From Saprospiraceae bacterium (GTDB lineage Bacteria > Bacteroidota > Bacteroidia > Chitinophagales > Saprospiraceae), in the NCBI GenBank assembly GCA_021739645.1, contig JAIPBL010000019.1, positions 16,206 to 80,205 on the forward strand: a stretch of 64,000 bases of DNA, in the 5' to 3' direction. Positions 3,944 through 56,268 of this stretch are shown here, one piece after another. The translations under genes were made by a program, and so were the position numbers. Every line of letters begins with the position of its first letter. Within the stretch, counting starts at the first letter, position 1. The notes beneath the pieces were generated by a model. It searched no databases. It was not told the DNA's origin and saw only the letters and a list, made by a program, of their open reading frames with translations.

Positions 3944-3981
3944 GAAATCGAGAAATTAAGAATTAGCGATAGGTTATTTAT

Positions 3982-4181
3982 ACGAATTAGGGGTTGAAAA
4001 GTGCCGTTAGGCACGAAATATCGGTAGTAAATGATTGAAAAACGGGTCTGCGTGCCGTAGGTACGCAACTTTTGCCGCTGGTTGTTGCGTACCTACGGCA
4101 CGCAGCGTCTGCTTCTGGCAATATCCTACCGACATTATGTGCCTAACGGCACAATTAACCGCATTTCAACGCCTAATTCGC
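3982..4181. mobile_element. Copy A of palindromic MITE-like element (200 bp)
   Basis: Left arm ACGAATTAGGGGTTGAAAAGTGCCGTTAGGCACGAAATATCGGTAG matches reverse complement of right arm (GCGAATTAGGCGTTGAAATGCGGTTAATTGTGCCGTTAGGCACATAATGTCGGTAG); inner GCGTGCCGTAGGTACGCAAC / GTTGCGTACCTACGGCACGC pair. Confidence 0.8.
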
Positions 4182-4231
4182 ATCATTTACCTTTATTGAG
4201 CAGACTGGAAGAATATCGATGCTATTTGGGC

Positions 4232-11540: not shown

Positions 11541-11672
11541 GGCGTGAAAAGTACGCCGATTTTTCAAAAACGCCCCCCACAACCTTTTAACCCTGTCGAA
11601 AAGCAAAACAACCATGCAGTTTTTTCCCATTTTTGTTCCATCAACACTTGTCCCAAACCGAAATTGACGCAC

Positions 11673-13751
11673 ATGGTTCTCCGAATGCTTGCCCTATTTG
11701 CTTGTTTATCTTTGGTAAAAACTGCCACGGCGCAGGATGCGGCCACATGGAAAAAAAATGGCAACGACCTATTGGCAGCCGGACAGTTCCAACCCGCCCT
11801 CGAAGCCTTTTTGAATGCCGAAAAAACGGCACCCATCGATGCTGGAACTCGCACCAATATTGGCATCTGCCACTATCACCTCCACCATCCGATGGAAGCC
11901 GAGGCGCAACTCCTGGCTGCCTTTCAGGCAAAAAAAGAACCACCGCCCATCAATTACCTCTACCTCGCCAAGCTCCAGCAAGCCCAGCTTCACTTTGAAA
12001 AAGCCCCCATTTTTTACAAGCAATTTTTAAGAAAAACACCTGCCGACCACCCGTGGCGCCCAGCCGTTCGGGACGAAATCAGGCGCTGTGCGACTGGCCT
12101 GCGGCTGCGCCGCCAGTCCCCACTTGCCGCTGTGCTGCCGCTTGCCGACATCAATTCCAATGCCGACGATTTTAAGCCACTGCCCAGCCCATCCGGGCAG
12201 GAGCGGCTCTATTTTTCTGCGAATGGCCGAAGCACCACCGCCACCGATATTTTTTTTACGGAAGTAAGAGCAGGCGATTGGTCGGCACCCAATCTGCTGA
12301 ACCGCTTCGTCAACGGCGCCGACCATGAGGTTGCACTCGGCTTCGACGAGGATGGGGCGAACCTCTTTTTTTTCCGAGGAAAAACGCTGCAAAACGGCCA
12401 AATTTTAGTGGACTCCTTTCGGGAAAACCCCCTCGAACGCACCCTGTTTTTCGAACCGTTTGCCGGGCCGATGCGACCATCAGAAGGCGACTGCGAACCC
12501 TTTTTCTTCAATGACAGCATCCTCGTCTTCGCCAGTAGGCGGGCAGGCAGCTTTGGTGGCCTCGACCTCTACGTGAGCACCCAAACCAACGGCATTTGGA
12601 GCCCCGCCCTAAACCTTGGCCCCGTCATCAACTCGGCTTACGACGAAACCTCGCCCTTCCTCTCAAGGGACGGGCGCACCCTCTATTTTTCGAGCAACGC
12701 CACCGCTCGCAGCATGGGCGGCCTCGACATCCAGCGGGCCACCTACCTCGACTGGTCGGCCCGCTGGTCACCACCCATCAACCTCGGCCCGCCCATCAAC
12801 TCCGCTGCCGACGACGACCATTTCATGCTCTCCCACGGGGGAGACCGGGGCTTTTTCGACTCCGACCGCATCATCGGCGAAGGTGGGCGTGACCTTTTCG
12901 TAGCACTTTTCGACCAGCCATGTGAATGGCAACTGAGCGAATCGTCGCCCGTTGCCTTTTGCCTCGTTGCCGAAGGCAAAAAAACTCTCGAAATAAGCGA
13001 GCGGGCCGTTCAGCCACCGGGCGTTTTTTTCGATGAAATCAGCTCCTTCGAGCTGCCGGTGATGACGCTACCACCGCCCGGCGGCACACCGATTGAGCAA
13101 ACCGTCAACCAGTTTGCGTTGCTGGCGCAATTGCTCAAAAAATATCCAAAACTGGAGGTCACGGTTGCGCTCCACTCCGCAGAAGGGGACGATGCCGTGG
13201 GTGCTTTTTTGTTCGCTTCGCAAACGGCCACCGACCTGCTACGGCAAGAGGGCGTTGGCACTGAGCGGGTGACGCTGCTCTTCGCTGGCAGCAGCTTCCC
13301 CGTTGCCGATGGTGCTTTCGAAACGAACCGCCGAGCAGAGGTTTTTATCGAAAATCCAACCATCTTGCCCTTTGAGTTGCGCCGCCCTCCGCTGCCACCG
13401 GGAGCGTTCAAAGCGGAGTTTTTTCAAAAAAGCATGACCAGCCTCGCCTACTGGGTGACGGTTGATGGTGGGCGGGAAGGTGTTGACGGGAAAGGCTTGG
13501 CGAAACTTTTTGAGCTGTATCCAGCAGGGCTGCTGGAGCGGCGGCCAGGGCAGGGCAGCTTGATTTTTTCGCCCGGACTGTACCTCACCTACGATTCCAC
13601 CGAGGAGTGGCAACGGGCGCTGGTGCTCGATGGTTACCCTTCGGCCACCATCATCCCCTACCTGCGGGGCTTTGCACTGACGAAAGAGGCTGCTGCGAGG
13701 TTTGTTGATGACTTCCCAGATTTGCAGAATTTCATTGATAATGAGAATTAG
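11673..13751 (+). CDS. TPR + WD40-like (PD40) + degenerate OmpA-like domain protein, PorE-related
   Basis: Signal peptide MVLRMLALFACLSLVKTATAQ; TPR region; PD40 motifs (LYFSSNATARSMGGLDI); C-terminal ETNRRAEVFIENP OmpA-like remnant. Confidence 0.7.
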   Translation: MVLRMLALFACLSLVKTATAQDAATWKKNGNDLLAAGQFQPALEAFLNAEKTAPIDAGTRTNIGICHYHLHHPMEAEAQLLAAFQAKKEPPPINYLYLAKLQQAQLHFEKAPIFYKQFLRKTPADHPWRPAVRDEIRRCATGLRLRRQSPLAAVLPLADINSNADDFKPLPSPSGQERLYFSANGRSTTATDIFFTEVRAGDWSAPNLLNRFVNGADHEVALGFDEDGANLFFFRGKTLQNGQILVDSFRENPLERTLFFEPFAGPMRPSEGDCEPFFFNDSILVFASRRAGSFGGLDLYVSTQTNGIWSPALNLGPVINSAYDETSPFLSRDGRTLYFSSNATARSMGGLDIQRATYLDWSARWSPPINLGPPINSAADDDHFMLSHGGDRGFFDSDRIIGEGGRDLFVALFDQPCEWQLSESSPVAFCLVAEGKKTLEISERAVQPPGVFFDEISSFELPVMTLPPPGGTPIEQTVNQFALLAQLLKKYPKLEVTVALHSAEGDDAVGAFLFASQTATDLLRQEGVGTERVTLLFAGSSFPVADGAFETNRRAEVFIENPTILPFELRRPPLPPGAFKAEFFQKSMTSLAYWVTVDGGREGVDGKGLAKLFELYPAGLLERRPGQGSLIFSPGLYLTYDSTEEWQRALVLDGYPSATIIPYLRGFALTKEAAARFVDDFPDLQNFIDNEN

Positions 13752-14006
13752 GGGTTGAAATAGCTTTGAACGTGCCGTAGGCGCACGATGAATTTGGGCG
13801 TTACATCAGCCATGTTGTGTTGAAATAGCTTTGAACGTGCCGTAGGCACGAAATGTTGGTAGTAATTTACCCAAACGACGGTCTGCGTGCCGTAGGTACG
13901 CAACTACTACCACGATTCGTTGTGTACCTATGGCACGCAGACCCGTTTTTCAATCCATTTCTACCGATATTTTGTGCCTAACGGCACATTTCAACCCTTA
14001 ATTCGC
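13743..14006. mobile_element. Copy B of palindromic MITE-like element (264 bp, carries 65-bp internal duplication)
   Basis: Termini GAGAATTAGGGGTTGAAA / rc GCGAATTAAGGGTTGAAA; flanked by identical ATTGATAAT at 13734-13742 and 14007-14015; internal repeat gttgaaatagctttgaacgtgccgtagg at 13754 and 13819. Confidence 0.85.
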
Positions 14007-14208
14007 ATTGATAATTGAAATGGCGCCATCCCGTCATTTGCCGAGCTTTTTGTCAAAAATCCTCCAAACCTTCGTTTTCAATGGCCGTCCGAAAATAATC
14101 GGCCTAACTTCGTACCCTAACCCATTGGTTAAAAGTCACCCTGATGGCACGTCAAACTACCGTGCAATGCGCTATTTTCAACTGATTACTCACAAAAATT
14201 ATCCTGTG

Positions 14209-17200: not shown

Positions 17201-20200
17201 CGTACAGCTATCAATGGCAGCGCAATGGGGTAAACGTCGGCACCAATTCGCCGCTGTATTCCACCAATCAACCCGGTGATTATCAGGTGATTGCGACCAA
17301 TGTGGCGGGTTGTACCGCCATCTCAAATCTGCTGGTGCTCGTGGATTGCGCAGCGATCGGTGGCACCTGCGTGGGCGGCCAATGCTTCGGTGGGGCTGGT
17401 GGAGGGCCACCCGTTCCTGGTTGCACACCTGCGGGTACCGTGGATTTTTCGATGGGCACCTCGCCCGACTGCAATGCGCCGAGCTTCACCAACCTGTCCA
17501 CGAACTTTGTGCCCGGCAGTTTCACCTGGTATTTTGGCGATGGTACCACCAGCACCCTTGACAACCCGCCGCCCCACACCTACCCGAATGTCGGCTACTA
17601 CACGGTCGTCCTGATTGGCGAGGTGAACGGCGTCACACCTGGTACTTCTTGCGCCGTGGGCACCTACCACGACGTGCTCATCCCCGTGGAAGCTGACTTT
17701 GCCTACTCCTCGGCCTGTCCCGGTGCGCCGGTTCAGTTCACCGATTTGAGCGTGTTCTTGTCACCCTACGACATCATCGCTTGGTCGTGGGATTTTGGCG
17801 ACCCAAGCAGTGGCGGGGCCAATACTTCTGCTTCGCAAAACCCGATGCACACCTTCGCCTCGCCCGGCACCTACAACGTTGAGCTGACTATTTCCTCGTC
17901 GGCCTTCGGCGGCTGCACGGTTACCTTCGTAAAACCAGTGACCGTTTTCATGCCGCCAGCAGTGAGTTTTGCCTTGCCTTCGGCAACCTGCGAGAACACG
18001 TCCTTGCCGTTCGATGCGGTGGTGGGCAGCGGGGTGGCCAGCGTTTACTGGGATTTCGGCGACCCGACCAGTGGAGACGGCAATACCTCGGAGCAGTTCA
18101 ATTCTTTCCACGAATTCGATGCGCCGGGCAATTACACGATACAGTTGACCGCACTCAGCATCGAGGGTTGCCTCAATACTTTCACCGACAACATGACCAT
18201 CACTCCGAACACGCTATCGGGAAATATCACGATGGCGCCGCCTTCGCCGCTTTGCGAAGGAGAGACGACGACGCTTACTTCCCCAGCAGGCGGGGTGAGT
18301 TGGATTTGGTCGAACAGTGACATTTTGGACAATATAACCGTCTCCGAATCAGGTGTTTACACCGTGACGCTGACCGATGCGACGGGCTGTACCTATGCGC
18401 CGCCGCCTGCTTCGGTGGTCGTGTTTGGCGAGCCGAACGGCATCATCAAGGCGGTGGAATACAACGAGTTTGGGCAACCGGTGGCGTTTTATGAAAACAA
18501 CCACTCGGTCTGCGAGGGCGAGGACGTGTTCCTCATCATTCAGGGCAGTTCGAACAACAGCTACCAGTGGTCGAACGGCTCAACGGATGACCAACTGGAG
18601 TTTAGCGAAGACAAGGGCAACTTGTTGCCGGTAGGCGACCATGACTTCACGGTGACGGTGACGGACATGACGACGGGCTGTACCGCCACGGAAGGGCCCT
18701 TCACGGTGACGGTGAACCCTGTGCCGACCGTTGCGATTACCAGCTCGCCTTCCGGTTTTATTTGTGAAAACACCAGCGCCACGCTCAGCGTGACCAGCCC
18801 GAACGCCACTTACAACTACCAGTGGAACACCGGGGAAACTGGCAACAGCATCACCGTCGTTGCCGGAGGCACTTATTTTGCCACAGCCATCAACCAGTTT
18901 GGCTGCAAGAGCCAGAGCAATGAAGTTGACATTCACAATGCCCCGGACATTGACCTCGTGCCTTCTGGCTGCCATTCCCGCTGCGAGCCTGATACGATGT
19001 GCCTGCCGTTGATTCCTGACATCGCCAGCTACCAGTGGCTTTGGAACGGAAGCCCGATGGCTGCCCCGAACGGCACAATGGCCAACCCGATTTTTGACCA
19101 AAGCGGCGAGTATGCTGTGGTGCTGACCGACATCTACGGCTGTACCTCCACGAGCGAAGTGCTCACACTCGACCTGTTTGCTGGCTTCGGCGACATCACG
19201 GGCGACGTGTATTTTGACGTGAACGGCAACGGCGTGATTGACGCTGGCGATACGTTAGTGAGCGGCATCAATATTTTCCTGAACAACGGCACGATGAATG
19301 TGGACACGGTGACGAGCAGCCTTGCCACGGGTTACAATTTTGTGAACATCCTCGCTGCCAATTACGGCCTGATTCTCGACACGCTGAACCTCCCGGCGGA
19401 CTGGGAGGCGGTGCTGGTCAGTACCACCGTGACGCTCAGTGGCTGCGACGTGGAGGAGCAGTTCGACTGGCTGCTGTTCTCCAGTTGTCCCACCTCCACA
19501 GCTTCGGTTCAACTCTTTGCCTGCCCCGGTGGGGTGGCCGATTACAATGGCAACTTTATTGCCGAAGGCACCAGCCAAGATTTCACGCTGGTCAACTACC
19601 TCGGCTGCGACAGCATCGTGACGGTTTTTGTGAACCCACTGACGACCAGCACCGGGGCTGAAGCTTTCGATGCTTGCCCCGGCACTTCCATCAATTACAA
19701 CGGTACGGACGTTGCCGCAGGCACCAGCATGGATTTCACGCTGGTCAACTACCTCGGTTGCGACAGCATCGTGACGGTGACGGTGAACCCGTTGCCTGCC
19801 CCGACTTCTTCGGTGGCACTGACTGCCTGCACCGGCAGCTTCGCCGAATACAACGGAACCCCATTGCAGCCGGGGGCAGATACGCTTTTCCTTTTCCCAA
19901 GCGTACTTGGCTGCGACTCGGTGGTGAACGTGACGGTGACGGAACTGACCGCCAGCACTGGCTCGGAGAGCCTCAGTGCTTGCCCCGGCACGAGTGCGAA
20001 TTACAACGGCACGGACATCCTGGCGGGTGCTTCGCAAGATTTCACGCTGATGAACTGGCTGGGCTGCGACTCGGTGGTGACGGTGACGGTGACGCCGCTT
20101 CCTACCAGCACTTTGATTGTTGACGGAGTGGCCTGTTCGGGTACATTTTTCGATTACAACGGAACGCCTGTGGCGGCTGGAACGACAGAGACTTTTTACG

Positions 20201-21324
20201 AAGTAAACGCCTCGGGCTGCACCGATACCGTCGTGGTGGCGGTGGTGGAAATACCAACCAGCACGAGTGCCGCACAGTTGACTGCCTGCCCCGGCACGAC
20301 CGTGACCTACGGTGGCGTGACCCTCTCGCCGGGCGACGTGCAGCCGTTTACCCTGATGAACCAGTTCGGCTGCGACTCGGTGGTGACGGTGACGGTGCTT
20401 GCTTTGCAAAGCGACACGACGCAGTTGGCGTTTGAGGTTTGTGAGGGTGAAACGACCAGCTACAATGGCCAGACACTTGCCGCAGGCGACCAGTTTACTT
20501 GGGTTGGAACGAACCAAGCGGGCTGCGACTCAGTGGTTTACGTGAGCGTAACTGGCTTGCCGCCAGTGAGTTTTGCTTTGTCTGCTTCGCAAATTTGCTG
20601 GAACGCCGTGGATGGCAGCATCTCGGTTGGCAATATCAGTGGCAGTACCGGGCCGTACCAGTATTCGTTGAACGGCACGGCTTTTCAGGCAGATACGCTG
20701 TTCGCTGGTTTGCCGCCAGGCGACTACACGGTGTCGGTGCAAGACCAGAACGGCTGTGTTTTTAATGAGAATATCACCATGCCGGTCATCTCACCGATGG
20801 TTACAGAGGCGCAAGATGAGACGCTTGTTTGTGGCGAAACGGTCAAGCTGCGGCCATTGGTCCTCAGTGATTTGCCAGTGATTTGGGAGTGGTCGGACAG
20901 CACGGGCGTGATTTCTACGGCAGCTGAATTGCAGGTCAGCTCGCCCGGCATTTATGTTTTCAATGTGACAAATGACTGCGAAACCTCATCCGGCAACATC
21001 AACGTAGCGGTCGAGCCGCTGAAGCAGGCGAAGTTGATTTACCTGCCCAATTCCTTCTCGCCGAACGACGACGGCATCAATGACTGTTATCAGGGGTATG
21101 TTGACCCGGGAACGGAGCTACTTAGCTATGAGCTGAAAATCTTTGACCGCTGGGGCGACTTGCTTTTCAGGACGGAGGAGATTGATGGCTGCTGGGACGG
21201 CTTGTTCCAAGGCAAGAAGTTGAATCCTTCGGTGATGGTGTACCTCGTGCAGATGCAAGTACGCAACTGCGACGGCGTAGTGGTTGATTTGAAACGGAAG
21301 GGGGATATCCACTTGGTACGGTAA
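14209..21324 (+). CDS. Giant secreted PKD/SprB-repeat protein with T9SS type B (gliding motility-associated) C-terminal domain
   Basis: Signal peptide MKKRLQLFFTLISICFFIQNALAQ; PKD-like YVWDFGNFNTSTQFEPSQTY; C-terminal LPNSFSPNDDGINDCYQGY...LKIFDRWGDLLFRTEE type B CTD. Confidence 0.9.
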   Translation: MKKRLQLFFTLISICFFIQNALAQQGGNIIGPQTLCVGACDTYEVVLFSPNEFIEVVTWGANTGTTVGTGNPISFCPQVTAPGTVVLTAVVIAFGPNGNTITYDMQLPIVITYGLTPVIVPTIASCPQDSSNQSPCEKICAFGTAQYEVTGIPPTTPVTWSVQGAQSFTPNGHIVTVEWGAPGQGQVSVVAGGNPGSNGPFQFFCGQQSISAAPNSTSEIYFSEADGTAPYTVTYTWNGVAQAPFTLQSMPTVMPFASPGTYVFTVTDATGQTDNCTTTVTNSAQDCWVSAYPSNIDHQTDFLACNGAIQLVGVGGFPPYTFQWSNGNTTQNLNDVCCGTYSVTVSDASGCFSSTSIIVACPDSTSTCAGETSLCVEILEEPEANIGSLPPPQPNGTIAICQGQTIYFQNNSLNATSYVWDFGNFNTSTQFEPSQTYDVPGSYIVSLIARNECYCADTSFVEVYVIAADVPEINCTGTICEGETVTYSTDTNCGTYTWALTGSYNILDGGMPTDNFITVEWLAGPQGTISLSVAGCAGTVCTLPNVVPIPIISDNVQIQGPDKVCEGSTEEYYIPDYQGTSINWTVLGSGNITDGQGTERITVNWFGNANQGNPQRVIVEFENCYLGCSGKDTLDVNIVPGFYATGPIEVCASSSGTYQSRNTVTNALIPANWQVINSLGAVVWSSPAATNTANIPFNFPAGAYTVRATAANASSYCNNGYNIYIKLVAPPPAPTAITGEDEICPGLTYSYEGVGLATTDFTWTFTGGAPANFGGNPANVTWNAAGPYAISVVQTATTGLACTSLPASLTVNPIPAFSVTGDSQVCREQSGTYSVPFFENIDYQWVISPAAAGTVVSGANTEQVEVLWHTDGPATVGVTVCGATENYNVTVLPLPEPVAQTPANLCQGETAVIQTTVGYASYVWNNASGAQISTLTTPSLGAGNYEVEVTDANGCVGDTIFEIIELAGPNISISTPAYYALCSGGPAAVLHATESSPAYSYQWQRNGVNVGTNSPLYSTNQPGDYQVIATNVAGCTAISNLLVLVDCAAIGGTCVGGQCFGGAGGGPPVPGCTPAGTVDFSMGTSPDCNAPSFTNLSTNFVPGSFTWYFGDGTTSTLDNPPPHTYPNVGYYTVVLIGEVNGVTPGTSCAVGTYHDVLIPVEADFAYSSACPGAPVQFTDLSVFLSPYDIIAWSWDFGDPSSGGANTSASQNPMHTFASPGTYNVELTISSSAFGGCTVTFVKPVTVFMPPAVSFALPSATCENTSLPFDAVVGSGVASVYWDFGDPTSGDGNTSEQFNSFHEFDAPGNYTIQLTALSIEGCLNTFTDNMTITPNTLSGNITMAPPSPLCEGETTTLTSPAGGVSWIWSNSDILDNITVSESGVYTVTLTDATGCTYAPPPASVVVFGEPNGIIKAVEYNEFGQPVAFYENNHSVCEGEDVFLIIQGSSNNSYQWSNGSTDDQLEFSEDKGNLLPVGDHDFTVTVTDMTTGCTATEGPFTVTVNPVPTVAITSSPSGFICENTSATLSVTSPNATYNYQWNTGETGNSITVVAGGTYFATAINQFGCKSQSNEVDIHNAPDIDLVPSGCHSRCEPDTMCLPLIPDIASYQWLWNGSPMAAPNGTMANPIFDQSGEYAVVLTDIYGCTSTSEVLTLDLFAGFGDITGDVYFDVNGNGVIDAGDTLVSGINIFLNNGTMNVDTVTSSLATGYNFVNILAANYGLILDTLNLPADWEAVLVSTTVTLSGCDVEEQFDWLLFSSCPTSTASVQLFACPGGVADYNGNFIAEGTSQDFTLVNYLGCDSIVTVFVNPLTTSTGAEAFDACPGTSINYNGTDVAAGTSMDFTLVNYLGCDSIVTVTVNPLPAPTSSVALTACTGSFAEYNGTPLQPGADTLFLFPSVLGCDSVVNVTVTELTASTGSESLSACPGTSANYNGTDILAGASQDFTLMNWLGCDSVVTVTVTPLPTSTLIVDGVACSGTFFDYNGTPVAAGTTETFYEVNASGCTDTVVVAVVEIPTSTSAAQLTACPGTTVTYGGVTLSPGDVQPFTLMNQFGCDSVVTVTVLALQSDTTQLAFEVCEGETTSYNGQTLAAGDQFTWVGTNQAGCDSVVYVSVTGLPPVSFALSASQICWNAVDGSISVGNISGSTGPYQYSLNGTAFQADTLFAGLPPGDYTVSVQDQNGCVFNENITMPVISPMVTEAQDETLVCGETVKLRPLVLSDLPVIWEWSDSTGVISTAAELQVSSPGIYVFNVTNDCETSSGNINVAVEPLKQAKLIYLPNSFSPNDDGINDCYQGYVDPGTELLSYELKIFDRWGDLLFRTEEIDGCWDGLFQGKKLNPSVMVYLVQMQVRNCDGVVVDLKRKGDIHLVR
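19490..20566 (+). repeat. Seven tandem ~50-aa repeats (ACPGT..YNG...GCDSVVTVTV) within the giant protein
   Basis: Aligned by eye from the ORF translation: repeated C-P-G-T ... Y-N-G-T ... A-G ... GCDS(I/V)VTVTV units. Confidence 0.85.
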
Positions 21325-43414: not shown

Positions 43415-46400
43415 ATGAAAAAACTTTTACCACTACTGATTATCTCCTTTCTTGCTTGGCTTCCCACGACCGATGCTCAATTGACAATTTCAGGAGAAAA
43501 CGTTATTGTTTGCGATCATGGAACAGTCAGCATTGACATTTCTGCCAGCAATTTCATTGACATTACTAGTGCCCAGTTTGGCATTACATGGGATACCAAT
43601 GTTATTTCGTTCACAGGCGTAACGAACAACATGCCCGCATCGGAGATGTACAATCCCATGTACACAGCCAATGGAGAGCTAATTTTTTCTTGGTTCGACT
43701 CGGGCCCGCCACCAGCAGGCTACACACTACCACCAGCTGGCTCCGGCATTCTTTTCACCATCAATTTCAGTGTAGTAGGGAATTACAATCCCGATAGCTT
43801 ATCGGTTATCAACATCGGGAACTCTCCACATTATACCATGGAGGTTGTTTCTACTTCTGGCGTTATTCCCAATGGAAACATAACCATAAACCCCGGCAGC
43901 GTTACGATAGATGATTCCGTTAAACCCCTTCTTACTTGCCCGCCCAATATAGACACTACGGCTGCGATGGGACAAAACACCGTCACGGTAAATTATTTAG
44001 CCCCAACCATAACTGATAATTGCGATTCGCCTGCTCCTATGGGTACGTACAGTCCAATTTCAGGTAGCAGTTTCATGGCAGGCACGACAACAACCGTTAC
44101 CTGCACTGCGACTGATAGCGCGGGCAACTCCGGTAATTGCACCTTCACGGTTAGGGTGAACCCTAACCCCAATGCACTGATGATTCTCGCTGACGACATT
44201 GCCCTGAATTGCAACGCGACTGCGGTGGACATCCCAGTTAGGGTCAAGAATTTTGACGACATGGTCAGTGCGCAGTTTGCCCTTGTCTGGGATCCCACTG
44301 TGTTGGAATATGTGGACTCCACAGATTTTATAAATGTCACTGGCCATCCAAGTGCTATTTACAATGCCAATAATGTATCATCCGGAGAGTTTCGTTTTAT
44401 TTGGATAGATGCAAATAACCCAGCAGGTGAAAACTTGCCGGACAGCTCCGTGATATTCGTCCTGCATTTTACCTTGCTGGACGACACCGCCCTGCCAGAC
44501 GTAGTCGCATTCGCTGCCCTGCCCGGGTTTGTTATTGAATTTGCAAATACCGGAGGCGTAATAAGCCCGTCAAGCTATGCATTGGACGATGCCATCGTTT
44601 CAGTTAAACCCGACACCATCCCGCCGAGCATCACCTGCCCCGCCGACCAGACTTTGGCGACGAATGCCAGTTGCGCAGCGATGCTCCCAAATTACACCTC
44701 GCTGGGCACTGCGACCGACAACTGTTCGGCGCCGGTGGACATCGTCATCACACAGTTGCCGCTTGCAGGCACGGTCGTTTCGGACACGACCGACGTGCTG
44801 CTGATTGCGACCGACGAGGCTGGCCTGAAGGACACCTGCACCTTCCAGGTGATTTTGTTTGACAATATTTCGCCGAGCATCACCTGCCCAGCCGACCAGG
44901 CTTTGGCGACGAATGCCAATTGCGAAGCGATGCTCCCCGACTACACCTCGCTCGGCACTGCGATAGACAACTGCTCGGCTCCGATTGACATCGTCATCAC
45001 GCAATTGCCGCTTGCTGGCACGGTCATTTCGGACACGACGGATGTGATGCTGATTGCCACCGACGAGGCTGGCTTGAAGGACACTTGCAGTTTCCAAGTG
45101 ATTTTGTTTGACACCATCCCGCCGAGCATCACCTGCCCAGCCAATCAGTTGGTTTTTGCTGACGCCAATTGCGAAGCAATTTTGCCTGATTACACATCGC
45201 TGGGTGTTGCCGCTGACAATTGCACGGATACCATTGACATCGTCATCACGCAGTTGCCGCTTGCAGGCACGGTCATCACGGATTCTACCGAGGTGATGCT
45301 GATAGCGACCGACTTGGCTGGTTTGATGGACACCTGCAGCTTCCAAGTAACGATTCTGGATACCATTCCACCTATGATTACTTGTCCGGCAAATGATACG
45401 CTGGACGTAGATTCAGCGGCATGTTTTGCCACCTTCATTTTACCAGCGGCCTCTGCCACGGACAGTTGCGGCATGGTCTCCATTACCGATAATGGCCCGG
45501 CGAACGATGAGTTCCCGGTTGGCCTGACGACGGTGACGTTCACGGCTACCGACATGAGTGGCAATGCCGCCACCTGCCAGATGACGATTTTGGTAAATGA
45601 CACGATACCGCCGGTGATAACTTGTCCCGTTGATACTTCGCAAACAACCGACCTTGGCGACTGCACAGCAGTGGTCACATGGGCTACACCTACGGTGGTG
45701 GACAACTGTACGAACGTCACCATTACCTGTACGCCACCATCTGGCTCGACGTTTCCGGTTGGTGACTCGACGGTGGTTTGCATCGTCGAAGACCCGGGTG
45801 GAAACAAGGACACCTGCTCGTTCGTGGTGACGGTGTTTGATGGCGAAAACCCGACCCTCGATTGCCCCAGCTATACCACCATCATGGTGCCAGCGGGAAC
45901 GGTTGATACCGTGATTAATAACATTTACTTGTTCTTTATCGGTGACAATTGCACGAGCCCGGTTGATACCAGCTACTACCATTTTGCTGGCGCAATACCT
46001 TCGGGTGGCGGCAATGGCATTGATGCCAGTGGCACGGCCTTCCCGGTCGGCACCACCACCGTTACCTATTTTGGAGTGGATGATGCGACCAATGTTGGCT
46101 CCTGTTCTTTCGATGTTACGATTGAAGAAGACCCACAGGTAATGATTGCCTGCTCGGCTCCTCATACTGTTGACAACGGCCCTGGAATCTGCGGCGCACT
46201 CGTCAGTGGCGTAACCGCCGATGCCCAGCCATCCGCCTCGGTGGTAGCTTCTTTTTACCAGAAAAGTGGGGCAACCATCGGCAATGGCCTTGGGTTGGAT
46301 GCCAGTGGGGGGTACAGCGGCGGCTTGACGACGGTGACTTTCTTTGCCGTCAGCACGTTTGGCGATACGGTCAGTTGTTCAACGACCGTGCAGGTGAACG

Positions 46401-55782: not shown

Positions 55783-55857
55783 TTTCATAAATGGCCAAGG
55801 TTCTTAGAAAAAGTGCAAGACGTTACTTATTAGACCCTAACAAGTCCCAATACTAAT

Positions 55858-56055
55858 GCGGATAACGGGTTCAACTAGTGGAAAAAGTGCCTTTAGGCAC
55901 GAAATGTCGGTAGAAATGTTGAACCGACGACTTGCGTGCCGTAGGTACGTTACTTTTCGTGGGCTTGTGGCGTACCTACGGTACGCTAATCTGACATTTC
56001 AACCCATTTCTACCGACATTTTGTGCCTAAAGGCACATTTCAACCCGTTATTCGC
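55858..56055. mobile_element. Copy C of palindromic MITE-like element (198 bp)
   Basis: Termini GCGGATAACGGGTTCAAC / rc GCGAATAACGGGTTGAAA; flanks AATACTAAT (55849-55857) and ATTACTAAT (56056-56064), 8/9 identical. Confidence 0.85.
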
Positions 56056-56268
56056 ATTACTAATTAAGGTTGAATAGATGAAAACACAATGTTTTTAATT
56101 CGTCAACAAGCCTCAGTTTTTTGAAAGGAATTGGTACATTTGCTGGTGCTGCCGAATCAATATGACTTGCCTATCTGCAGTTAAACCCATTCTATACAAT
56201 CGAATTGTCAATTCTCTCGAAGGATAATAAGTCCGTATTCATTAATTCAAATCTAAAAAAGACAGTGT

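Follow-up and report, generated by a model that had tools for sequence, protein, structure and literature searches.

A palindromic MITE family in a Saprospiraceae genome, probably moved by an IS982-like transposase, with one copy inserted at a stop codon

Insertion sequences of the IS982 family are 845–1282 bp long, encode a transposase of ~290 aa, end in AC in 57 and in CC in 5 of 69 members, and produce direct repeats of 2–10 bp (PMC7335449, Fayad et al. 2020). Miniature inverted-repeat transposable elements (MITEs) are known in this family from Cardinium, where MITECca01 and MITECca02 derive from the IS982-family element ISCca4 (PMC9769881), and in Coxiella burnetii QMITE1 and QMITE2 lie at the 3′ ends of functional genes, for which neutral changes of the C-terminus have been proposed (PMC5896051). 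We analyzed a 64,000-nt stretch of a Saprospiraceae draft genome (hereafter the window), which carries copies A, B, and C of a MITE family. Like MITECca01/02, these are transposase-less, IS982-type MITEs of the Bacteroidota in the size range of ~240 bp, with the terminal inverted repeats (TIRs) of a parental IS; they nevertheless form a separate family, whose central part, a conserved hairpin with covarying pairs, is not recognizably IS-derived, and for which the parental-type IS is found in related genomes and not in the assembly that carries the MITEs. Like QMITE1/QMITE2, copy B supplies the last residues of a protein or overlaps its end, although the Coxiella elements are a different family in a gammaproteobacterial host and no link to an IS982-like transposase was shown there. 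The literature (ISfinder being outside the search) yielded no report of the present family. The family is new and its kind already known, and the insertion is real but largely ordinary. We hold with high confidence that copy B is a nonautonomous MITE, mobilized in trans by an IS982-like DDE transposase with a 5-bp target-site duplication (TSD), whose insertion at a gene end was nearly neutral. The observations behind this reading are the element boundaries, the duplication, the target preference, the dispersed copies, the empty sites, and, in a related genome, an autonomous element whose ends match and whose transposase gene is intact.

Copy B (268 bp, positions 13741–14008 of the window, forward strand) was delimited by TIR alignment across copies. 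Its left TIR, ATGAGAATTAGGGGTTGAAAT (13741–13761, forward strand), carries a new TAG stop codon, its right TIR (13988–14008, reverse strand) has the reverse complement ATGCGAATTAAGGGTTGAAAT, and TGATA stands on either side as the TSD (13736–13740 and 14009–14013). We placed the boundaries here because AT opens the inverted repeat both in clean copies and in the autonomous IS. The nine nucleotides ATTGATAAT do occur on both flanks (13734–13742 and 14007–14015), as the original prediction stated, with GAGAATTAGGGG...CCCTTAATTCGC between them; the match is not a chance one, since most related copies with readable ends lie between direct repeats that match exactly and do not vary in length. The length of that repeat is, however, 5 bp and not the 9 bp first proposed. 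Among 32 elements with TIR-defined boundaries, copies B and C included, an exact 5-bp TSD was found in 22, some copies have imperfect TSDs, and no element has a match of 6 bp or longer (0/32).

The difference between five and nine is accounted for by the target. From 62 insertions with exact TSDs, the symmetrized empty target is ATTANTAAT, a preference for AT-TANTA-AT: AT precedes the TSD in 29/62 and follows it in 23/62 (background 0.10; pooled P about 5e-20) and stands on both sides in 10/62 (P about 1e-9). The site of copy B, ATTGATAAT, differs from the target consensus at one position, and on each side its 9-bp match is composed of TGATA, one AT derived from the TIR, and one AT of the host. 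The apparent 9-bp repeat therefore arises because the favored target, in which a 5-bp TSD is made, has an outer AT identical to the end of the TIR. The same AT-N5-AT lookalike is present in six autonomous copies (loci L166, L169, L172, L178, L196, and L203), and these, together with copy B, are what speaks for a true 9-bp duplication around an element ending in GCGAATTA, as it was first delimited, in a family of 9-bp duplications. Once AT is assigned to the TIR, the 32 TIR-bounded elements contradict such a duplication, and the extra AT pairs are explained by the target preference; we rejected it as extremely improbable. Junctions of this type can mimic longer repeats, so that a seeming 9-bp duplication calls for caution.

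The insertion itself is borne out by two close relatives, G008 and G012, in which the orthologous locus lacks the element and synteny is conserved on both sides. Aligned to the joined flanks, the empty site reads ...TTTCATAGAAAATTGA in G008 (orthologue 71% identical) and ...TTTCATTGAAAACTGA in G012 (62% identical), and past it homology picks up again in the downstream gene. In both, the protein ends F-I-E-N followed by TGA at the corresponding position. The prediction of an empty site with its TGA thus holds, with E in place of the D that had been expected. The exact 12-mer ATTGATAATTGA was not found in the orthologues compared (G008 and G012, both from other species).

The gene that received copy B encodes a 735-aa PD40/beta-propeller and TPR-like protein (11544–13751, forward strand; Pfam PF07676 PD40, E = 1.1e-10, and orthologues). 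Its last codons are TTC ATT GAT AAT GAG AAT TAG, and removal in silico of the element plus one repeat gives TTC ATT GAT AAT TGA. The F-I-D-N-E-N-TAG ending with an element-derived TAG was thus correctly predicted, whereas the idea that the insertion restored the stop codon was not upheld: the TGA was replaced by a TAG internal to the left TIR (13749–13751, forward strand), which lengthens the protein by two residues (E-N), and the former TGA is displaced 3′ of the element (14016–14018, forward strand), where the orthologues end ...N-TGA. Copy B entered ATTGATAAT two bases 5′ of that TGA, and the TIR, read in this phase as (A)AT GAG AAT TAG, ends the gene two codons later; we infer that such a change was close to neutral.

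It had also been suggested that the terminus of the element can supply a stop codon. An in-frame TAG is indeed provided, but any copy with such a TIR can do so, and copy B is not special in this. When a typical copy is translated from one of its ends toward the center, whichever end is taken, a stop codon follows after 5 residues in phase 0, after 2 in phase 2 (the phase of copy B, with its extra E and N before TAG), and after 9 or 18 in phase 1, so that two of the three phases meet a stop within six codons of either end. Elsewhere in the same genome, one gene is extended by 9 residues to an element-borne TAG (C119:87387, locus L003), and at another junction the stop codon is re-formed as GAG TA/G, the slash marking the junction (C80, L013).

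Insertion sites fall at a stop codon in 9 of 66 cases, whereas 2.3% of positions drawn at random from these loci do so. This excess would be expected if insertion at stop codons were adaptive, the hairpin being kept as a 3′-UTR element (protection of the mRNA end or a transcription barrier) and stop targeting being a feature of the element; the target consensus includes TAA, the first base of the element, A, re-forms TA/A, and the Coxiella MITEs, which lie where functional genes end, offer a precedent (PMC5896051). Among noncoding positions, however, about 10% lie equally near a stop codon (10.4% expected), and the 9/40 observed there is a weak enrichment (P = 0.02); several of the nine stop sites may belong to spurious ORFs, and the remainder is explained by the purging of insertions inside genes. 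After this correction stop-codon targeting is weakly supported as a property of the element, adaptive insertion seems unlikely, and neutral survival at gene ends is the simplest reading. Copy B then offers a testable example of a MITE settling harmlessly at the end of a gene, with a TIR that brings early stop codons in two of three phases.

The genome holds ~25 copies of the MITE, some cut at contig ends. In the window, copy A (204 bp, 3980–4183, reverse strand) is flanked by TATTT/CATTT, a TSD with one mismatch, and copy C (202 bp, 55856–56057, forward strand) by TACTA (55851–55855 and 56058–56062). End alignment of the copies gave the TIR as ATGCGAATTARGGGTTGAAAT, with a subfamily ATGCGRATAACGGGTTSAA (the TIR is also given as ATGCGAATTAGGGGTTGAAAT); TIRs are ~20 bp long and in most copies depart from the consensus by 0–2 mismatches per end. 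The TIR subfamily of copy C, ATGCGRATAACGGGTT, is the one found in the autonomous IS of the congener G007. Element length ranges from 202 to 268 bp, and no ORF of at least 100 aa is confined to the element. Copy B exceeds the usual 204 bp by about 64–65 bp, the extra length coming from a partial duplication inside this copy and specific to it (13754–13847, forward strand), in which GTTGAAATAGCTTTGAACGTGCCGTAGGC occurs at 13754–13782 and again at 13819–13847; GAATTTGGGCGTTACATCAGCC, which lies between the duplicated parts, occurs once in the genome. Short (under the ~600 bp usual for the class), without a transposase gene, bounded by TIRs, flanked by TSDs of constant length, dispersed in copies, matched by empty sites, and paired through its TIRs and TSD length with autonomous elements in G007 and G009, the element is a MITE. 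The plasmids of PLSDB contain no match to it. No Rfam family was found in the window at the gathering threshold; sub-threshold matches of the element to mir-238 and Acido-Lenti-1 were weak and were set aside as most likely palindrome artifacts.

Genus TIR searches recovered an autonomous IS in G007 (1,009 bp, TIR ATGCGAATAACGGGTTGAAA, TSD CAGTA) with an intact ORF of 306 aa. Its product matches Pfam DDE_Tnp_1 and the NCBIfam IS982 model NF033520 (E = 4.4e-28, 98.5 bits, below the curated cut-off of 130), and all 16 relatives examined matched the same model (16/16, best E = 3.3e-38). The AlphaFold model (pLDDT 84.7), whose best structural match in the PDB is the Tn5 transposase, supports a DDE fold; a sequence search of the PDB gave no match. 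Conservation points to E263 as the putative catalytic residue; it is followed by SFFNWVN, and the next K/R is K272. An IS of 1,005 bp in G009, at 55% identity to that of G007, has the same ends and TSD TATTA, and a relative with about 40% identity in G033 has the ends ATGCGAATCCAGGGCTAAA. A scan of genome_contigs returned 80 related loci, mostly from Bacteroidota; most of the resolved ones have the ends ATGCGAAT and 5-bp TSDs, many have the TIR ATGCGAATCAAGGGTTGAAA, and TIR-bounded autonomous copies are mostly about 950–1,090 bp long.

This group shares with the IS982 family a length of about 1 kb, a single DDE transposase of ~300 aa of atypical type (no K/R 6–7 residues after the catalytic E), a TIR that fits A-x-N6-T-N5-TT, and a TSD within the reported 2–10 bp. 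It differs in that its ends in the TIR-bounded copies are AT(GCGAAT) and not AC or CC (AT was a requirement of the search behind the 62-insertion set, though not of the genus TIR search or the locus-end survey), that its TSD is uniformly 5 bp in a strongly palindromic target, ATTANTAAT, and that the G007 transposase scores below the NCBIfam cut-off. Because size, DDE type, direct-repeat range, and TIR pattern fit but the AC end does not, the group behaves as IS982 does and is best called IS982-like. The MITE family of the genus is thereby tied to an IS982-like group that extends across the Bacteroidota, ends in AT, always makes a 5-bp TSD, and has a target of its own that can be specified.

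Three facts count against our preferred reading: no mover of copy B was found in its own genome, the MITE has an interior that is not recognizably derived from the known IS, and the TSDs of some copies are imperfect. Neither the IS982 model nor the G007 transposase found a homologue in this draft of 147 contigs, and no full-length IS was found at the single TIR-like ends on contigs C73, C115, C103, and C54, where there were only short TIR-only derivatives (e.g., 68 bp, TSD GCTTT). This absence is not proof, since the draft is broken at repeats and a transposase gene may be missed. Contigs C25, C88, C122, and C142 start or stop inside MITE copies; this repeat is therefore one at which the assembly breaks, and autonomous copies may have dropped out of it. 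TIR-only derivatives of 68–133 bp (L124:2546–2613, L136, L138, and L146) have the same TIRs and exact 5-bp TSDs around unrelated interiors. One type of transposase seems to be common to several MITE subfamilies. The element was probably moved by an IS982-like transposase of the type seen in related bacteria, a group that makes 5-bp duplications, prefers the symmetric target AT-TANTA-AT, and would act in trans; for copy B, the candidate mover is the G007-type transposase or a similar enzyme whose gene was lost or did not assemble.

The MITE is a single long palindrome, complete but for a small part, with ~20-bp TIRs, ATGCGAATTAGGGGTTGAAAT, and a length of about 204 bp (268 bp in copy B); as DNA, a 204-bp copy folds at −73.8 kcal/mol, compared with −25.7 in shuffles. 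We aligned 18 cores from 8 genomes (mean column identity 72%). The consensus structure has compensatory changes in 11 of 36 pairs; paired cells amount to 95.1%, against 88.9% in shuffles and 26–39% when slid, controls that are supportive and not proof, as the structure was taken from the very alignment on which it was scored, and the cores share ancestry. Several stem sequences occur in the arm hairpins (GTGCC/GGCAC, CGTCC/GGACG, GTCCC/GGGAC, GATCCC/GGGATC, and GCCCC/GGGGC). The core (13835–13985 in the window; loci L092–L117), with its covarying pairs, is common to elements of differing termini: in G002, G003, and G004 it lies between CATGAGTCATCCCGAATT ends, and the termini in G009 are AACGTGAGTT.

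Conserved small hairpins with compensatory changes, and similar cores within other termini, are also what a REP/BIME-like hairpin would present if a single-strand transposase of RAYT type (Y1/HUH) had spread it, its repeat-like flanks being due to chance. To our knowledge, however, 5-bp duplications next to TIRs are not an expected product of Y1/HUH transposases; here such duplications are exact in 22/32 elements, and the same type of TIR is carried by autonomous DDE ISs, so that in place of a missing TSD and a Y1 partner we find a TSD and a DDE partner. We regard this alternative as very improbable for the MITE, although a process of REP/RAYT type may have spread the core where its termini are different ones.

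With mobilization by the IS982-like group retained for the MITE, terminus swapping around the hairpin core is possible. The interior could be more than filler: a structurally conserved module, made up of a long central stem, a neck, and two small arm hairpins and maintained by compensatory changes, that was acquired between unrelated transposon ends, ATGCGAATTAGGGG... in some genomes and CATGAGTCATCCCGAATT... in related ones, an idea that we put forward tentatively and think rather unlikely. If true, a hairpin cassette would swap its mobility machinery and keep its structure, presumably for a function of its own as RNA or single-stranded DNA. These patterns may mean that the structure is maintained because it has a function, or that palindromes have been corrected repeatedly. 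A covarying core between different termini is the more unusual part of these results and of specialist interest.

The CATGAGTCATCCCGAATT-ended elements (L095, L096, L100, L106, and L111; G002, G003, and G004) have no clear direct repeat, and their flanks look palindromic, AACATGAG...CTCATGTT, perhaps through a palindromic CATG duplication. Some MITE copies of G036 (L094 and L110) lie in targets GACTC-ATG, beside sequences like the ends of CATGAG-type elements, which suggests nested insertions. In two copies (L125:5421–5638 on C68, and L009, C45:23916–24133), a palindrome, CCCGATAGCTATCGGG or CCCGACACCTATCGGG, changes one of the arm hairpins. Elsewhere in the window, tandem repeats of 249 nt (44612–45358) and 153 nt (19518–20397) lie in very long ORFs (about 2200–2440 aa), which probably encode repeat-rich surface proteins.
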